NCBI GenBank assembly: GCA_022360715.1
Contig: JAKSCG010000137.1
Coordinates: 62,001 to 126,000, forward strand
Direction of reading: 5' to 3'
Length of the DNA stretch: 64,000 nucleotides
From: Halanaerobiales bacterium
GTDB lineage: Bacteria; Bacillota; Halanaerobiia; Halanaerobiales; DTU029
The position numbers and the translations under genes were made by a program. The notes beneath the pieces are model-generated. The model did no database searches. It worked only from the letters and a program-made list of their open reading frames with translations, and was not told where the DNA came from. Positions 2,270 to 63,609 of the stretch are shown here, in pieces. Positions within the stretch are counted from its first letter, which is position 1, and every line of letters begins with the position of its first letter.

Positions 2270-3361
2270 ATGATGACCAAAACTTTTAGTTGGAAAACAG
2301 AAACAGGACTGGATTTTGAAATAACAATCAAGGACGAAATGGAAATAACCCAAAAACAGAATGATCTTTATGACAAAAAGGTAAGTATTGTGTCGGCAAG
2401 ACTAAACGGTAACTATTTCCCGACTGACGATGAAGGGGAAATAGATCAAATGACAGTCGAAAAAGCACGCTATCAAGGCCAACATTTAATAATTTTCCGA
2501 ATCAGATATGAAGCATTAGAGTTTGTAAAAAAATTACTGAATATGAAAAACCAATCAGAAGTAGTAAACATAAAAGCGGACCATGAATTTATAGTGTACT
2601 ATCAGCAAGCTGTCGTAACCGCCGACGCAAAAATCGAAAAAATGAAGTTGGCCGAGAAACAAAGAATTGAACAGCTTTTTAACGAATTAAAAGATAACGA
2701 TTTACTTGAAGTAAGATATCACACAAGTCACGGATTTTCTTTATTACATTACGATTTGGACAAACATGATTTTTTTATCGAAGGATTGAGACTTATGAAA
2801 TCACAAAAAGTTGACATCCTGGATGAATATAAAACATACAGTGATTACGGTGATTATCATGTTGAACATAAATACAAATTGAAGTTCAAAATCTTGAAAG
2901 ACTTAATCGAAAAGGCTAAAGAAAAACACGATTTAGAACGGAAACAGCTCCATACAGAAAAAAAGGAAACGGAACAAAGAAAAGCGGATGAATTATTCAT
3001 TTTTGGCACAGAGATACTTTCCAGCGTCGGCAACTTGATGTTACATAGTCTGGGTGCTAAATTTGACGGGGAAATAATCAAAATTTATACCACGGGGATG
3101 ACAAGATTTATGAAGGAGATTCCCCACAATACGACCTACAAAATCAAAAACATTCTCCGTGAGGAAGGTTTTAAGTGGAGTGCCGAAGATACAGAATGGC
3201 AAATTGAAGATACTGAGGAAAACCGGGAAAGAACAATTAATTTACTCAAAAAATATGACACAAAAGTTGATCCTGATAAATTAAACTTACAGCGTTGTTG
3301 GGAATGCGGAAATTGGCATTATCCTAGCGACCTGGACGAGGATGGTTACTGTGGCTGCTAA
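2270..3361 (+). CDS. Unknown prophage protein with C-terminal four-Cys zinc motif
   Basis: A 363-aa protein, first gene behind the operator-rich promoter. It has an N-terminal region of about 130 residues with mixed beta/alpha composition, a helical middle rich in Lys/Glu (around residues 120-250, possible coiled coil), and a segment near 265-325 with a GFKWSAEDTEW motif. The GFKW/W pattern recalls the short repeats in the 377-aa protein encoded at 5462. The last residues hold Cys343, Cys346, Cys361 and Cys363, arranged like a small zinc site. I do not recognise the family. A nucleic-acid-associated role is possible from the zinc motif and neighbours, but unproven. Translation could start at either of two adjacent ATGs. 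Confidence 0.75.
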   Translation: MMTKTFSWKTETGLDFEITIKDEMEITQKQNDLYDKKVSIVSARLNGNYFPTDDEGEIDQMTVEKARYQGQHLIIFRIRYEALEFVKKLLNMKNQSEVVNIKADHEFIVYYQQAVVTADAKIEKMKLAEKQRIEQLFNELKDNDLLEVRYHTSHGFSLLHYDLDKHDFFIEGLRLMKSQKVDILDEYKTYSDYGDYHVEHKYKLKFKILKDLIEKAKEKHDLERKQLHTEKKETEQRKADELFIFGTEILSSVGNLMLHSLGAKFDGEIIKIYTTGMTRFMKEIPHNTTYKIKNILREEGFKWSAEDTEWQIEDTEENRERTINLLKKYDTKVDPDKLNLQRCWECGNWHYPSDLDEDGYCGC

Positions 3362-3475: not shown

Positions 3476-4099
3476 ATGGTGAAGATAATGTCAAGAATCA
3501 GTTTGCAAGAAATAATCGAAAAACTTGAAAGTTTATTTTCAAAATTTAACATCAAACTTTTTAATAATCAGCTTGAAAAACCAGTAATTGCGGTTTCGCC
3601 CAACACAAATAGGGATGCCTACGGATGGTGTACAAGTTGGAAAGCCTGGAAAGATGGCGAATCAGAAGGATATTATGAAATAAATATAAGTGCAGAATAT
3701 TTAAACCGACCATTTGAAGAAATATGCGAAACGCTAATTCACGAAATGGTTCACCTTCTGAATTTACAAAATAAAATTAAAGACACCTCAAGAAGTGGGA
3801 TGTACCACAATAAGCGATTCAAGCAGATAGCAGAACAACATGGATTGCTTGTGGATAAAGATACGAAATATGGTTGGTGCATTACAAGGCTAGCAGACGG
3901 AACACTTAAGTATGTAAAATCACTCAATGAACAAGGATTCAAAATTTATAGAAGCAGAGCCGCAAAATCAAAAACATCAAGCAGTTCTTCTTCAAAAAAA
4001 TATGTTTGTCCGCAATGCAGAACTATCATCAGAGCAACTAAAGAAGTAAAAGTTGTATGTGGTAATTGTGACATTGAATTTAAAGAAGAAATTAAATAG
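3476..4099 (+). CDS. SprT-like zinc metalloprotease domain protein
   Basis: A 207-aa protein. The SprT-like domain spans about residues 10-135, with the zinc motif HEMVH (His89, Glu90, His93) and a likely third ligand at His111. A Ser-rich linker (167-173) follows, then a zinc ribbon with Cys178/Cys181 and Cys195/Cys198. This is the SprT/Spartan layout: a metallopeptidase followed by a DNA-binding zinc ribbon. Spartan proteases remove DNA-protein cross-links, and phage SprT proteins are common but mostly uncharacterised. The ATG at 3488 is an alternative start with GGTGA in front. DNA-linked neighbours (helicase, ParB) agree with a DNA-associated role. Confidence 0.85.
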   Translation: MVKIMSRISLQEIIEKLESLFSKFNIKLFNNQLEKPVIAVSPNTNRDAYGWCTSWKAWKDGESEGYYEINISAEYLNRPFEEICETLIHEMVHLLNLQNKIKDTSRSGMYHNKRFKQIAEQHGLLVDKDTKYGWCITRLADGTLKYVKSLNEQGFKIYRSRAAKSKTSSSSSSKKYVCPQCRTIIRATKEVKVVCGNCDIEFKEEIK

Positions 4100-5461: not shown

Positions 5462-6595
5462 ATGAGCTGGTATTATGGAACCTATTCATGTGGCCACGAA
5501 GGGAGAACCCAGGTTTATGGTCCAACAAAAAAGCGTCAGTGGATAGCCGATCGGCGTTTTGAAGGACTGTGTCCTGATTGTTACAAAATAAAATTAGAAG
5601 AAGATAGAACCCGGGCCAATGAAGAAGCGGCCCGGAGAGCCAAAGAAGCAGGATTGCCGGAATTAACCGGTACTGAAAAACCAATAGCTTGGGCCAATAC
5701 GCTCAGGCAGGAAATGATGGAAAAAGCAGAAAAAGAAATTGAACATCATGTTAATAGATATTCGGCCGATGAATTGAAGCTATATAACGCCCTTGAATAT
5801 ATGCTCAAAACCAAAAAGAAGGCTTCATGGTATATTGAGCATAGGCAAAAAAATATAATTGATATTTTAGAGGTCTTGGCCAAAAAAATACCAACTGAAA
5901 AAGATACAATTGAAAAAGAACTCAAAACAGAAGCCATAGTATTTCCCGAAAATAAGAAACATGAAAAAATAGCAGAAATCAAATTGGAAGAAGAAGTCGT
6001 AGCGGTCTATTATCCCAGGAATGACGATTTTTATAATATCGTCAAAAATGACTTGGGATATAGATGGAAAGGTAGCCGGTGGGAAAAAGCAATTAATTAT
6101 AAGACCGGCACCATTGAAGATAGAGCAGCCGAACTAGGGAACAAGCTGCTTAATGCCGGCTTCCCGATCATGATCATGGATGAAGTTGCCAGGAAAAAAG
6201 CAATAGAAGCAGTTTATGAGCCTGAACATGATCTGTGGATAGGCGCCAAAGTTTCCGGCAAATATAAAGGCCAATTTACCATAACCTGGGCCGGTTATGA
6301 TGATACCATGTATCAGAGAGCCCGGAGTCTTCCGGGTTCAAGGTGGAGTGGTTTTGACGTAGTAATTAAGGCTGAGTATTATAAAGAAATAGAAGAATTT
6401 GCTCAGTTGTATAATTTTAAGTTTTCTCCGGGCGCAGTGAAATTATTAAACGAAACTAAAGAAAAAGATCGCTATATCCAAGAAAATGCAGTAAAAGTTG
6501 ATCCGGCCGAATCTAAAGAGAAACTTGAACATAAAGATGGGTTGCAAGAAATATTAGAATCGAAGGAGGGCATTTTGGATGATCTTAAAGACTAA
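5462..6595 (+). CDS. Zinc-ribbon protein with two HARP-like repeats, partner of the SNF2 helicase
   Basis: A 377-aa protein. Residues 1-45 hold a zinc-ribbon pattern (Cys10, His12, Cys37, Cys40). A Lys/Glu-rich helical stretch follows. Two related segments come next: about 165-235 (ending GYRWKGSRWEKAI) and about 255-330 (SLPGSRWSGFDVVIKAEYY). The second matches the logic of HARP-type repeats (LPGxRW followed by a strand and helix) that precede SNF2 helicase domains in SMARCAL1-like annealing helicases. It overlaps the SNF2 gene by 17 bases, so the two halves of such an enzyme seem encoded as separate, translationally coupled proteins. Similarity is read by eye; a profile search is needed. 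Confidence 0.65.
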   Translation: MSWYYGTYSCGHEGRTQVYGPTKKRQWIADRRFEGLCPDCYKIKLEEDRTRANEEAARRAKEAGLPELTGTEKPIAWANTLRQEMMEKAEKEIEHHVNRYSADELKLYNALEYMLKTKKKASWYIEHRQKNIIDILEVLAKKIPTEKDTIEKELKTEAIVFPENKKHEKIAEIKLEEEVVAVYYPRNDDFYNIVKNDLGYRWKGSRWEKAINYKTGTIEDRAAELGNKLLNAGFPIMIMDEVARKKAIEAVYEPEHDLWIGAKVSGKYKGQFTITWAGYDDTMYQRARSLPGSRWSGFDVVIKAEYYKEIEEFAQLYNFKFSPGAVKLLNETKEKDRYIQENAVKVDPAESKEKLEHKDGLQEILESKEGILDDLKD

Positions 6596-7973
6596 ATTAT
6601 ATGATCACCAAATCAAAGCAGTTGAAAAAATAAAAAAAATTAAAGTTGGGGCCTTATATATGGAGATGGGCACGGGCAAAACTCGAACTGCTTTAGAATT
6701 GATCAAAAAAAGGTATAACAAAAATAAAATCGATCACATTCTTTGGCTTTGTCCGTGCTCAGTCAAAGAAACTCTAAAACGGGAATTGATTAAACATGTC
6801 GCCGGAGAACTTTCAATGTTTACAATTTGCGGGATCGAAACCCTTTCATCAAGTATAAAGACCAATTTTAAATTATTAAATTTGGTTGAAAAAAAGAAAG
6901 TACATATTATTGTTGATGAAAGTAATCTGGTTAAAAATCACCGGGCCAAAAGAACGATCAACATTGAAAGATTAGCCGGCAAATGTACTTATAAATTAAT
7001 ATTAAATGGTACTCCGATTAGCAAATGTGAAAAAGATTTATTTTCGCAATGGTATATCCTTGATTGGAGGATTTTGGGGTATCAATCTTTCTGGTCCTTT
7101 GCGGCCAATCACCTGGAATATGATGAAAGAATTAGGGGCAAGATCAGGCGTTGTCTAAATACTGATTATCTGGTTAGGAAAATTGCTCCTTATACTTATC
7201 AAATAAAAAAAGAAGAATGTTTGGAGCTCCCACCTAAAACTTATTCAACTGAATATTATGGGCTTTCTAACGAGCAACAAAAACATTATAAATATGTAGC
7301 CGATAAACTTTTATTTGAACTTGATGAATTGCAGCCGGAGACAATATATAGATTGTTTTCTGGATTGCAAAATGTAATAAGCGGATTCCGGGTAACAGTC
7401 GGAAAGCACTTGAAAAAGACTGCTTTTTTTGATACACCTTTAAAAAATCCGCGAATACAGTTATTACTTGATTTAATCAAAAAAACAGATCATAAAATGA
7501 TTATTTTTTGTAAATTTACTCAAGAAATTAAAGATATAATCAAAGTTCTTAATTATAAATACGGAGAAAAATCAGCGATGCCATTTTATGGTGAGATTAA
7601 TTTGAAACAGAGGCAAGAAAACATTGATGCATTTTATAAGAAAACCAAAACAAGATTTTTAGTAGCTAATAAAACCTGCGCTGGCTATGGTCTTAATCTT
7701 CAGTTTTGCAATTATATTATTTATTATAGTAATGACTGGAATTATGCAACCAGAAGCCAGTCGGAAGATAGGGTGCATCGAATTGGCCAAAAAAATAATG
7801 TCCATATAATAGATATTTGTGCGGATAATAGCTTAGATGAAAGAATCTTAAGTTGTCTATGGAAAAAAGAAAATTTAGTCGACAGTTTTAAACGGCAACT
7901 TGAAAATCAAAAAGATAAAAAAGAATTTTTAAGCAATTATTTTAGATGCAAGGGGGTTTTAGATAATGCCTAA
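6579..7973 (+). CDS. SNF2-family DEAD/H-like helicase/translocase
   Basis: A 464-aa protein, a compact SNF2 core. It has a Q-like motif YDHQIKAV (8-15), Walker A MGTGKT (30-35), motif II DESN (113-116, in place of DEAH), motif III-like NGTP near 144, IIFCKFTQE (start of RecA domain 2, near 309), and C-terminal GYGLNLQ and QSEDRVHRIGQ (motifs V and VI). It should use ATP to translocate on duplex DNA. There is no accessory domain; HARP-like repeats are supplied by the preceding overlapping gene. SD AAGGAGGG lies 8 bases before the ATG, inside the upstream gene. It also overlaps the next gene by 8 bases. Confidence 0.92.
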   Translation: MILKTKLYDHQIKAVEKIKKIKVGALYMEMGTGKTRTALELIKKRYNKNKIDHILWLCPCSVKETLKRELIKHVAGELSMFTICGIETLSSSIKTNFKLLNLVEKKKVHIIVDESNLVKNHRAKRTINIERLAGKCTYKLILNGTPISKCEKDLFSQWYILDWRILGYQSFWSFAANHLEYDERIRGKIRRCLNTDYLVRKIAPYTYQIKKEECLELPPKTYSTEYYGLSNEQQKHYKYVADKLLFELDELQPETIYRLFSGLQNVISGFRVTVGKHLKKTAFFDTPLKNPRIQLLLDLIKKTDHKMIIFCKFTQEIKDIIKVLNYKYGEKSAMPFYGEINLKQRQENIDAFYKKTKTRFLVANKTCAGYGLNLQFCNYIIYYSNDWNYATRSQSEDRVHRIGQKNNVHIIDICADNSLDERILSCLWKKENLVDSFKRQLENQKDKKEFLSNYFRCKGVLDNA

Positions 7974-9243
7974 AGTATATACCGACAAAAATGTATATCA
8001 GGCAGCGTTGGAAAGGTATGATTTTATATTTCGGGAGTTTGATAATCTTTATTTTTCGGTTTCAGGAGGTAAAGACAGTAGCGTGATGTGGCAACTAGCT
8101 TTAAAAAAAGCTAAAGAATATAATAAGAAAATTGATATGCTATTTATTGACTTGGAAGCCCAATATAAGGCAACAATTAATCATATTACTGAATTAATTG
8201 ATGATGAATCCATTAATAAAGTATATTGGGTCTGCTTACCTCTTAATCTCAGAAATGCAGTCTCCATTTTACAGCCTAAATGGATTTGCTGGGATAAAAA
8301 AGATAAAGATAAATGGGTAAGGTCCATGCCTAAAAATAAATGGGTTATCAATGAAAGCAATTGTGAATGGAAATGGTTTAAACCCGGTATGGAGTTTGAA
8401 GAATTTATTATCTTGTTCGCTAAATGGTATTCAGAACAACACGGAAAAACGGCCGCCGGTATTGGTATTCGTTCTGATGAAAGCTTAAATAGATTTAGAA
8501 CCATTGTAAGCGAACGAAAAGAACAATATAAAAACAAATCCTGGACAACAAGGGTTAAAGGAAACGGAAAAGTTTATAATGTTTATAATTTTTATCCCCT
8601 TTATGACTGGACGGTTGAGGATATTTGGGGATGTGTAAGTAAATTGGACTTAAAATTTAATTTCATTTATGAACTAATGTATAAAAACGGATTATCGCTC
8701 CATGAACAAAGACTATGTCAACCATATGGAGATGATCAAAGAAATGGTTTAGATCAGTTTAGGGCGCTCGAATCTGAAACCTGGGAAAAGGTATTATGCC
8801 GGGTTAATGGTGTTAATTTTGGTAATATATATGCCCGGACAAGTCTGTTGGGGAATATCAAATCGGAGAAACCGGATAATATTACCTGGGAACAATACAC
8901 AGTTTATTTGTTAGAAAGTATTGGACTTTATGCTCCCGAATTAGAGGACCATTATTACCGAAAAATCAAAACCTTTATGAAGTGGTGGGAGGAAAAAGAA
9001 AATGTTTCCGTATGTCAGTATCGAGATACAGAAGATCCAAAACTAGAATCACAAAAAAAGATAGCTTCATGGCGGCGATTAGCAAGGGCTATAGAAAAAA
9101 ATGATTTTTGGATGAAAAGATTATCTTTTTCATCTACTAAATCAGATATACAAAAACTTAATGAATTAAAGAAAAAATACAAAAAAATATTAGGCGATGG
9201 TAAATATGGGAAAGATTTAAGAAAATGGGATGAAAAAAATTAA
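7966..9243 (+). CDS. IbrA-like PAPS-reductase-family protein
   Basis: A 425-aa protein. The N-terminal adenine-nucleotide alpha hydrolase domain carries the PP-loop SGGKDS (33-38), typical of the PAPS reductase/ATP sulfurylase group. The length, the WCLPLNLRNAVS-like stretch near 92 and the long Trp-rich C-terminal part fit the DUF3440/IbrA subfamily. In E. coli, IbrA and the ParB-like IbrB are encoded together in prophage-like elements and affect expression of other prophage genes; the chemical reaction is not known. Here the same pair is preserved, with IbrB 23 bases downstream. The start overlaps the helicase gene by 8 bases, suggesting translational coupling. Confidence 0.85.
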   Translation: MPKVYTDKNVYQAALERYDFIFREFDNLYFSVSGGKDSSVMWQLALKKAKEYNKKIDMLFIDLEAQYKATINHITELIDDESINKVYWVCLPLNLRNAVSILQPKWICWDKKDKDKWVRSMPKNKWVINESNCEWKWFKPGMEFEEFIILFAKWYSEQHGKTAAGIGIRSDESLNRFRTIVSERKEQYKNKSWTTRVKGNGKVYNVYNFYPLYDWTVEDIWGCVSKLDLKFNFIYELMYKNGLSLHEQRLCQPYGDDQRNGLDQFRALESETWEKVLCRVNGVNFGNIYARTSLLGNIKSEKPDNITWEQYTVYLLESIGLYAPELEDHYYRKIKTFMKWWEEKENVSVCQYRDTEDPKLESQKKIASWRRLARAIEKNDFWMKRLSFSSTKSDIQKLNELKKKYKKILGDGKYGKDLRKWDEKN

Positions 9244-9266
9244 AATAATAAAGGAGGATGATATTA

Positions 9267-9797
9267 ATGAAAATTAGTTTCCCCTGTATTAATACTAAAT
9301 TAGTTCCCGCATATAAGGTCATAGCAAATGATTATAATCCAAATGTAGTTGCCACTCCGGAAATGAAACTTTTAAAAACTTCTATTGAGTTAGATGGGGT
9401 GACAATGCCAGTAGTAACCTATTATAATCCAGACAAGGACAGATATATAGTAGTAGATGGGTTTCACCGATACACAATCTTGAAAAAACATCTAAAATCT
9501 GATATGATTCCAGTAAGCGTAATTGATAAACCTCTGGAAGAACGAATGGCTTCTACAATTCGCCATAATAGAGCCAGGGGCACACATCAAATACGGGGAA
9601 TGAGTGATATAGTTCTTGAACTTTCATCCGTTTATAAGTGGTCTGATGAAAAGATTTGTAATCAATTAGGTATGGACCTGGATGAAGTGATCAGGCTCAA
9701 ACAAATAACCGGACTCAAAAAGGCTTTTGCTAATCATCAGTTTAGTAAAAGCTGGGAAGAGTACGAAAAAAAACGTGAGGCTAAAAATCATGAGTAA
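9267..9797 (+). CDS. IbrB-like ParB/sulfiredoxin-fold protein
   Basis: A 176-aa protein. The start at 9267 is chosen because AAGGAGG lies 9 bases upstream; the in-frame ATG at 9258 directly abuts the SD. The ParB N-terminal-type domain covers about residues 10-105, with DGFHRY (64-69) in place of the usual GERR box and HNRARGTHQ near 96. A helical region with a probable HTH (around 125-150) follows. IbrB proteins pair with IbrA, as here. The ParB/Srx fold includes nucleases, CTPases and kinases, so the activity cannot be assigned. The stop overlaps the next gene. Confidence 0.82.
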   Translation: MKISFPCINTKLVPAYKVIANDYNPNVVATPEMKLLKTSIELDGVTMPVVTYYNPDKDRYIVVDGFHRYTILKKHLKSDMIPVSVIDKPLEERMASTIRHNRARGTHQIRGMSDIVLELSSVYKWSDEKICNQLGMDLDEVIRLKQITGLKKAFANHQFSKSWEEYEKKREAKNHE

Positions 9798-9957
9798 ATT
9801 TATTAAATCAATTATGTATAGATTTTACAATAAAGAAACTTACTTAGATTTTGATGAAAAAACATCGCCCAAACATGATGACATAAGTTTCCAGGAATTT
9901 GTAAACAGGGCGATCGATGATTATCTGGCCGGAAAATATAATCCCAAAAAAGACTAA
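9790..9957 (+). CDS. Small 55-aa protein coupled to IbrB
   Basis: Starts at ATG 9790 (MSKFIKS...), overlapping the last 8 bases of the IbrB-like gene; GTGAGG lies about 10 bases upstream. The C-terminal ISFQEFVNRAIDDYLAG resembles the second helix of ribbon-helix-helix proteins, but the first strand is not obvious. It is the last gene of the coupled 5462-9957 block and is followed by a 34-bp perfect palindrome. Function unknown; perhaps a small regulator. Confidence 0.6.
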   Translation: MSKFIKSIMYRFYNKETYLDFDEKTSPKHDDISFQEFVNRAIDDYLAGKYNPKKD

Positions 9958-9963
9958 AAAAAT

Positions 9964-9997
9964 AGAACCGGATTAGTTTTAAAACTAATCCGGTTCT
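9964..9997. repeat. Perfect 34-bp palindrome after the helicase/Ibr block
   Basis: AGAACCGGATTAGTTTT is followed immediately by its exact reverse complement (17 + 17 bp, no spacer). On the plus strand it is preceded by A-rich sequence and followed by GAGCTAAAAAA, so it lacks a T run on plus but has one on minus. It may work as a strong RNA hairpin protecting the 3' end of the operon, or as a transcription stop. Confidence 0.7.
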
Positions 9998-12057: not shown

Positions 12058-12070
12058 CCCCGAGGTAAGA

Positions 12071-12136
12071 CTTCAAATCCGGTGGCAGGACGGTAGACCG
12101 CTCTGTGGTGGGTTCGATTCCCACACATTCCCGCCA
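12071..12136 (+). other. attR: 3' fragment of tRNA-Sec (selC)
   Basis: From the anticodon loop onward the sequence reads as tRNA-Sec: CTTCAAA loop with UCA anticodon (12073-12075), the 3' half of the anticodon stem, and a long variable arm (CAGGACGG/CCGCTCTG with loop TAGA). The T arm GTGGG-TTCGATT-CCCAC, an 8-base acceptor 3' strand and an encoded CCA (12134-12136) follow. The 5' half is missing: bases before 12069 pair only two positions of the anticodon stem, and no D arm or matching acceptor strand is found at the proper spacing. This is a duplicated 3' end left by site-specific integration, not a working gene. Confidence 0.8.
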
Positions 12137-61755: not shown

Positions 61756-63609
61756 ATGGGAAAAATAATTGGAATTGACCTCGGTACCACCAATTCATGT
61801 GTGGCCGTAGTTGAAGGTGGAGAACCTACTGTAATCACCAATGCTGAAGGTAACCGGACCACACCTTCGATCGTATCATACTCCAAGAAGGGGGAAAGGT
61901 TAGTCGGTGAAACTGCTAAAAGACAAGCTATTACTAATGCTGACCAAACCGTAACCTCGATTAAAAGACATATGGGTTCTAACCATAGAGTTACCTTAAG
62001 TGGTAAGGATTATACTCCCCAGGAGATCTCCGCAATGATTTTACAAAAGATGAAAAGAGATGCGGAAGATTATTTGGGGGAAGAAGTGCAAGAGGCGGTT
62101 ATTACTGTACCGGCTTATTTTACTGATAGCCAGCGTCAGGCGACCAAAGATGCCGGAAAAATTGCCGGGCTGGAAGTAAAACGGATTATTAATGAACCGA
62201 CCGCTGCTGCCCTGGCTTATGGACTGGAAGATAAAAAAGATCAAACGATCCTGGTCTTTGATTTGGGCGGTGGTACTTTCGACGTTTCGATCATGGAACT
62301 GGGTGACGGAGTCTTTGAAGTTATTGCGACCAGTGGAAACAATCACCTCGGCGGTGATGACTTTGACCAAAAAATTATTGACTACCTGGCGGCTGAATTT
62401 AAGAAGGGGTACGGAGTAGATCTTAAAAATGACCGGATGGCGATGCAGCGGTTAAAGGATGCCGCCGAAAAAGCAAAAAAAGAACTATCGACGGTGATGA
62501 CTACTAATATTAATTTGCCTTTTATTACCCAGACCGAAGAAGGTCCTAAGCATCTCGATATCGACTTAAGTCGGGCTAAATTTGACGAACTGACGGCTGA
62601 CCTGGTCGAAAAGACAATGGGTCCTGCCCGGCAAGCTTTGAAAGATGCCGGTTTAAAACCGACCGAGATTGATGAAATTATTCTGGTGGGTGGTTCAATC
62701 CGGATCCCTGCTGTGCAGGATGCGGTAAAAAAACTGATTGGCAAGGAGCCCAATAGGGGTATTAATCCTGATGAAGTTGTGGCCATGGGAGCGGCAATCC
62801 AGGGCGGAGTAATGGCCGGAGATGTTCATGATGTGGTCCTGCTCGATGTTACCCCGCTTTCACTGGGGATCGAGACCCTGGGTGGGGTATTTACCAAGTT
62901 GATCGACCGTAATACGACGATACCTACCGAAAAGAGTAAGGTCTTTTCCACAGCGGCTGATAATCAAACCTCCGTTGATATCCATGTCTTACAGGGTGAA
63001 CGGAAGATGGCCGGTGGTAATAAGACCCTGGGCCGCTTTCAGTTAACCGATATACCGCCGGCACCCCGTGGCATGCCCCAGATTGAGGTATCATTTAATA
63101 TTGATACAAACGGGATCGTTCATGTTTCGGCTAAAGACCTGGGAACCGGTAATCAGCAAAACATTACGATTAAATCTTCCAGCGGTTTATCTGATGATGA
63201 GATTGAAAATATGGTTAATGAAGCTCAGTCCCACGAAGAAGAAGATAAAAAACGCCTGGAAGAGATCGAGACAAGAAATCAAGCCGACAGCCTGGTTTAC
63301 CAGACAGAAAAGACCCTAAAGGATGCCGGAGATAAGGTTGAACAAGGGGTTAAGGAAAAAGTGGAAAAGGCTAAAGATGAACTGAAAGAAGCCTTGCAAG
63401 GAGATAATACCGAAGATATTAAAGCTAAGACCGAAGCCTTGACCAATGCATTAACTGAGCTTAGTACCCAGCTTTATGCCCAAGCACAAGAACAAGCCCA
63501 GCAACAACAGCAAGCTGAGGGTGAGGGAGCAGAACCGGAGCAGAATGACGAGCAAACCGTTGATGTTGATTATGAAGAAGTAGATGAAGAGAAAGAGAAA
63601 GACCAGTAA
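61756..63609 (+). CDS. dnaK: Molecular chaperone DnaK (Hsp70)
   Basis: A 617-aa protein; ATG 61756 follows AAGGAGG. The ATPase domain has [28 protein letters not shown] and [12 protein letters not shown]. The substrate domain and the helical lid end in a Gln-rich tract ([11 protein letters not shown]) and a C-terminal acidic tail ([11 protein letters not shown]). It is third in the CIRCE operon. Confidence 0.98.

Follow-up and report, generated by a model that had tools for sequence, protein, structure and literature searches.

A mobile phage cassette joins a P1–SNF2 pair to IbrA and IbrB and may direct DNA modification

What an SNF2-family translocase, a putative accessory protein and an IbrA–IbrB pair do together is the question raised by a prophage locus of a Halanaerobiales bacterium (assembly GCA_022360715.1, contig JAKSCG010000137.1). 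The window analyzed here comprises 64,000 nucleotides (positions 62,001 to 126,000 of that contig) and sits in a 146.6-kb contig (C25) of a 4.0-Mb genome. An earlier note on this DNA had described five translationally coupled genes in it and proposed that they form a DNA-directed system with a sulfur/adenylate chemistry step. All five lie on the forward strand: P1 (5462–6595, 377 amino acids; the protein, not the phage of that name), the SNF2-family translocase (6579–7973, 464 amino acids), IbrA (7966–9243, 425 amino acids), IbrB (9267–9797, 176 amino acids) and a small, translationally coupled open reading frame (ORF; 9790–9957, 55 amino acids), spaced as the note had described, with overlaps of 17 and 8 nt, a gap of 23 nt and an overlap of 8 nt. 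We report that the first four genes form a conserved cassette, which on balance we take to be an ATP-driven DNA-modification system by which the phage probably marks its own DNA to withstand restriction by the host.

With nothing but a helicase-subfamily alignment as the query against IMG/VR, we fetched 80 contigs and searched them in six frames with hidden Markov models of the partner proteins, whose thresholds decide presence or absence. IbrA and IbrB were found in 78 of the 80 contigs and P1 in 77. A helicase occurring mostly without ibrAB would have refuted the note's proposal; this is not what the contigs show. The two contigs without IbrAB are L213, which ends just past the SNF2 gene, and L173, in which a DNA methyltransferase comes immediately after P1–SNF2 and an integrase-like gene after that. 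Retrieval with IbrA alone (80 contigs) returned IbrB in 79, a family that we call SCEH in 51, this SNF2 in 15 and P1 in seven. IbrAB thus often occurs without the helicase, which weakens the claim of a system, and because most IbrAB loci lack this helicase, IbrAB appears to be the wider core. As the tie from helicase to IbrAB is near-absolute, it is the helicase that seems to depend on IbrAB (and once on the methyltransferase alone), not the reverse. A control scan with an unrelated SNF2 protein, that of Acinetobacter phage SH-Ab 15497, returned no relative, and we took the counts in the phage collection as the background: 1673 records with an SNF2 match versus 210 with an IbrA match, which argues that IbrAB are tied to this helicase subfamily in particular. 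When a divergent P1 was used as the probe, SNF2, IbrA and IbrB were present in 12 of the 14 newly fetched loci. The full set of P1, SNF2, IbrA and IbrB, with its joining of an SNF2 translocase to IbrAB, is thus conserved in diverse elements, an outcome that the note had named as support for a system.

Gene junctions in the 80 contigs (n = 299) have a median of −11 nt, 88% being below 30 nt, and since gene order and overlaps recur across contigs this coupling is not due to chance. The 55-residue protein has no relative in Pfam, PHROGs, PADLOC or any fetched locus and was rejected as a component, so that of the five-gene system originally envisaged four genes stand as the conserved cassette and the fifth falls outside it. 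The cassette's location varies (past the lysis genes, between terminase and portal, or near recombination genes) and it moves as a unit. This mobility, together with a helicase subfamily tied to IbrAB or methyltransferase and not to replication genes, makes it very improbable that the cassette is an accessory module for phage replication or recombination, even though SNF2 helicases and ParB-like proteins are also found in replication regions and some phages have the set adjoining ERF/RecT genes.

Comparison of the loci revealed P1–SNF2 as the constant part, followed by one of three modules: IbrA–IbrB, IbrA–GNAT–IbrB, or a 291-residue protein with IbrA, IbrB and a methyltransferase. The 291-residue protein is degenerate and weakly resembles an SNF2 lobe; it and the methyltransferase are present in 19 of the 80 helicase contigs, L173 being additional. 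The methyltransferase, of ~218 residues, belongs to the beta class of DNA methyltransferases, with PF01555 in 13 of 19 members (L198 scoring above the cut-off), DpnA, MboII and CcrM as its PDB relatives, and DPP and the S-adenosylmethionine motif DxCMGxGLV invariant in a 19-row alignment. Two prophages, L096 and L101, are 91.9% identical in DNA over 3.2 kb covering P1–SNF2 and the next small gene, then diverge into the methyltransferase module (L096) and plain IbrA–IbrB (L101), and then are again 92.9% identical. A quickly built tree of 92 SNF2 sequences, in which some branches are long, implies 11 changes of module type under parsimony, and well-supported branches force at least nine of them. 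A scan with the methyltransferase alone gave 59 new loci whose upstream DNA exceeds 4.5 kb; IbrA and IbrB lie alongside in 57, at least 15 of which have no P1, SNF2 or 291-residue protein at the thresholds used and often show the order IbrA–methyltransferase–IbrB; Pfam and PHROGs confirmed the family assignments in sample methyltransferase loci. Five contigs have the C-terminal half of P1 fused to SNF2, as would be expected of an accessory domain of the motor, and further fusions (SNF2–GNAT in L182, IbrA–GNAT in L104, IbrB–IbrA in L229 and IbrB–SCEH in 13 contigs) chain P1, SNF2, GNAT, IbrA and IbrB together. Since IbrA–IbrB occupies or adjoins the slot of a methyltransferase, it would itself be a DNA-modifying module.

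A dyad of SNF2 and adenine methyltransferase on mobile elements is already known (PMC5512222), its representative DarB of phage P1 shielding phage DNA from type I restriction (PMC5512222, PMC12707154). Sister cassettes of the one in the window share with it an SNF2 motor coupled to a DNA methyltransferase on mobile elements, L173 consisting of just P1–SNF2–methyltransferase, but differ in their split proteins, their dedicated P1 partner, the beta class of their methyltransferase, and in mostly carrying IbrA–IbrB, alone or together with a GNAT, at or next to the position of the methyltransferase. The cassette is best read as a variant of the DarB-like dyad, probably serving antirestriction, and, as the note had proposed, it is most likely DNA-directed. 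P1 and the SNF2 motor would bind duplex DNA, translocate along it and deliver the chemistry there. As a PP-loop enzyme, IbrA would, judging by its family, activate a group by adenylation with ATP, and IbrB, a nucleoside triphosphate (NTP)-binding protein of ParB/sulfiredoxin (Srx) fold, would power or gate the step in the way that DpdB serves DpdA. The GNAT or the beta-class methyltransferase of related cassettes, both of which act on amino groups, would complete or replace the reaction, and the version in the window would rely on IbrA–IbrB alone or on a host enzyme. The Dpd system follows a similar logic, with a modification enzyme, a ParB-like ATPase required for preQ0 insertion into DNA by DpdA (DpdB; PMC12839542) and an SNF2-family helicase (DpdE); the cassette differs in having no TGT (DpdA), DpdC or other Dpd genes, a PP-loop enzyme taking the place of the transglycosylase, and a profile search matched neither DpdA nor DpdB among its proteins.

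Several points weigh against this reading. The cassette of the window has no GNAT and no adjoining methyltransferase gene, E. coli ybdNM is chromosomal, and a few IbrA–GNAT–IbrB sets (L106, L107) adjoin metabolic-looking genes with no obvious phage. In phages of the SCEH type, IbrAB works without the helicase. Having been retrieved by similarity, the loci are neither a random sample nor independent draws, and it is from sequence that we infer DNA modification as the outcome; a physical complex, DNA as the substrate, the reaction and the antirestriction purpose are likewise presumed. A bolder version, which we hold only tentatively, would make IbrA–IbrB the catalytic core of an undescribed DNA base hypermodification, in which IbrA might adenylate a base carbonyl or a small amine donor, modelled on the tRNA PP-loop enzymes that act on tRNA bases. 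IbrB would then supply the NTP-dependent drive, exchangeable GNAT, methyltransferase or other subunits would cap the new amino group, and P1–SNF2 would give processivity along the phage DNA; if so, different phages would carry different marks from one chassis.

By their profile matches, IbrA and IbrB of the window are bona fide members of IbrAB/YbdNM (DUF3440 + ParB). IbrA scored 99 bits against PF11922 (DUF3440; cut-off 25), 56 bits against the PAPS_reduct PP-loop domain PF01507 (cut-off 22.5) and 2e-80 against phrog_2302; IbrB matched phrog_2159 at 6e-66, with Pfam ParB_N below its cut-off. The PP-loop motif SGGKDS of IbrA (8062–8079) is conserved in its homologues, with S33, G35, K36, D37 and S38 kept in 100 of 100, and DxEA, GIRxxESxxR and YPxxDWxxxDxW are conserved as well. 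Its AlphaFold2 model (pLDDT, the predicted local distance difference test, of 83) is nearest in fold to CysD, reductases of adenosine phosphosulfate and phosphoadenosine phosphosulfate (APS and PAPS), and FAD synthase. IbrB has the invariant motifs NxYNPN, DGFHR and RHNxARGxH, and its PDB relatives are Noc/ParB and SbnI/SerK. Sulfiredoxins carry their catalytic cysteine in a GGCHR motif; this signature is absent from IbrB, whose invariant nucleotide-pocket motif DGFHR (9456–9470) has a phenylalanine at that position.

The sulfur chemistry step proposed for IbrA was not borne out. No cysteine is invariant among 100 IbrA sequences, and the protein scored far below the cut-offs of both CysH (23.9 bits, cut-off 165) and DndC (TIGR03183; 25.8 bits, cut-off 290.4), the latter an enzyme whose cluster and dyad cysteines have been described (PMC10853773); sulfur transfer by IbrA is therefore unlikely, and we rejected sulfur or phosphorothioate chemistry. 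No dnd genes were matched beside the cassette. Dnd, Ssp and type-4 BREX likewise use a PP-loop (PAPS-reductase-like) enzyme, and Dnd a ParB-superfamily protein, but the cassette has no DndA, DndD, DndE or PglZ, nor the invariant cysteine. The same results bear on phage annotations that make IbrA a PAPS reductase of an auxiliary sulfur-metabolism set: the PAPS_reduct domain is present and such genes have been annotated as auxiliary metabolic genes (PMC10434257), but, with no invariant cysteine, scores far under CysH cut-offs and DNA enzymes instead of cys genes as neighbours, we give this explanation hardly any weight.

Elsewhere, IbrAB/YbdNM have been given a role in activating prophage eib genes or in metabolism. 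The ibrAB genes of E. coli ECOR-9 reportedly activate eib genes (Sandt et al. 2002, cited in PMC8065619), and the cassette could accordingly be a gene-regulation module in which IbrAB co-activate prophage transcription and the helicase remodels protein–DNA complexes. The ParB-like fold of IbrB suits this view, but the full PP-loop ATP site kept in all IbrA homologues and the swaps with methyltransferase or GNAT modules suggest chemistry, and promoter activation could itself result from DNA modification; we thus regard regulation as quite improbable. In the literature covered, which mostly excludes subscription papers, we found no earlier description of a link from IbrAB to SNF2/P1, GNAT or methyltransferase. 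At least 210 public phage records contain DUF3440 proteins, whose annotations read PAPS reductase, virulence activator or sulfur metabolism; being linked to a dedicated SNF2 motor, a GNAT and a DNA methyltransferase, these proteins become candidate DNA-modifying enzymes. A widely misannotated phage gene family would thereby gain a testable function, and the role of IbrA and IbrB, in question for 20 years, can now be addressed by mass spectrometry of phage DNA, with the natural module swap between L096 and L101 as a ready-made comparison.

P1, for which 18 homologues were collected, matched only phrog_16123 in library profile searches. Its N-terminus harbors a CxH...CxxC zinc ribbon (residues 10–40), whose ligands are kept in all rows having the N-terminus except for one K at H12; a helical middle (about residues 61–150) with a G-T-E-K-Q-V-x-W-A motif and an alpha+beta C-terminal half (about residues 166–342) follow, and then a conserved acidic tail. 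The note had called P1 HARP-like. It has no match to the Pfam HARP domain, and the top PDB folds of its AlphaFold2 model (pLDDT 88) are XPB of TFIIH, at E-values of 0.02 and 0.35, with MutS lower; these weak fold matches are consistent with a HARP/DRD-like C-terminal half but no proof of one, and we dropped the firm HARP assignment as unprovable from sequence. SMARCAL1 (HARP–SNF2) similarly has an accessory DNA-binding-like domain with SNF2, separate here and fused in the five relatives mentioned above, with the same difference in the HARP match and the same weakness of the XPB/MutS matches. Residues 61–150 of P1 (5642–5911) resemble the anti-CRISPR AcrIF23 (Foldseek probability 0.96, profile E-value 0.007) and share a GxEKQVxWA motif with AcrIE7; some Bacillota genomes encode the segment by itself as a short protein (L144–L147).

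The second protein is an SNF2 ATPase with Pfam SNF2-rel_dom and Helicase_C (PF00176 and PF00271) and K34 in its Walker A motif, and its profile is like those of defence motors, though well under each curated cut-off, at 41.5 bits against DpdE (cut-off 500), 57 against ZorD (1500) and 45.5 against DrmD (610). This likeness, the cargo-typical location between lysis genes and attR, and the finding that ParB/Srx proteins can be nucleases (PMC12839542) would suit a prophage defence or superinfection exclusion system, in which SNF2 scans incoming DNA, IbrAB damage or tag it and competing phages are killed. PADLOC profiles, however, matched no Zorya, DISARM or BREX partner genes among the cassette proteins and assigned IbrA and P1 to no system, no nuclease is recognizable besides the possible ParB/Srx activity, and the partners are amino-group transferases, not effectors. 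Moreover, the set is carried by the F. columnare phage FCL-2 (SNF2 with IbrAB), which has no integrase or repressor and in which lysogeny was not detected (PMC4541368), so that it would also serve lytic growth; the S. thermophilus phage CHPC1230 has IbrAB only. Among 399 genomes from the phylum, four have DUF3440 and one has full-length P1, and a host defence-island system, which would not be so rare and would have an effector, was rejected; the prophage version of defence we consider unlikely.

The placement of the block between lysis genes and attR, a lysogenic-conversion position, was confirmed: the last 68 bp of a selenocysteine tRNA gene (tRNA-SeC), its 3′ end, stand at C25:14290–14357 (attL) and again at 12069–12136 of the window (attR). 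The repeats bound a prophage of ~60 kb with its integrase adjoining attL, inserted in the tRNA gene at C25:14259–14357. Directly past the fifth ORF, at the operon end, lies the perfect 34-bp palindrome that had been reported (9964–9997), a hairpin (−22.9 kcal/mol, z −7.2) with a T-tract on the minus strand; no other perfect palindrome in the 78 kb covered exceeds 22 bp, the length of the runner-up.

Upstream of the cassette the window encodes an unclassified protein (2270–3361) with a C-terminal zinc-ribbon-like CxxC...CxC segment and a GFKWSAEDTEW motif, and a SprT-like protein (3476–4099, phrog_6361). The same prophage encodes, outside the window, a second PP-loop protein (C25:35345–36190, L233; SLSGGKDST, 281 amino acids). 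The closest relatives of the window's IbrA are from Halanaerobium and Halanaerobiales metagenome-assembled genomes. IbrA appears as two ORFs in two metagenome-assembled genomes of one project (L109:5786–7073 and L110:8001–9288); L109 shows a frameshift, and the split in L110 has the same shape, apparently for the same reason, and so we rejected a split IbrA as biology. Among the families beside IbrAB, SCEH (~130 amino acids, motif SCEHxLTNxxxNRxAWxGQAA) accompanies the pair in many contigs (L028–L094, e.g. L085:5559–5984) and has no relative that we found in Pfam, PHROG or PDB; no Mom-like family appeared among the PHROG matches of the GNAT. A phrog_12389 protein of ~175 amino acids often lies beside the cassette or P1 alone (L013:7963–8484, L016:7034–7624 and about 35 other ORFs). 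An ectoine-synthase-like cupin adjoins or is fused to IbrB in Pseudoalteromonas and Mycobacterium phage (L010:7332–7724, L012:6302–7201), and in Fusobacterium phage phiFN37 (L008:5998–12465) IbrA–IbrB–SNF2 lies near a second ParB-like gene, a queuine transglycosylase-like gene and a queuosine precursor transporter.

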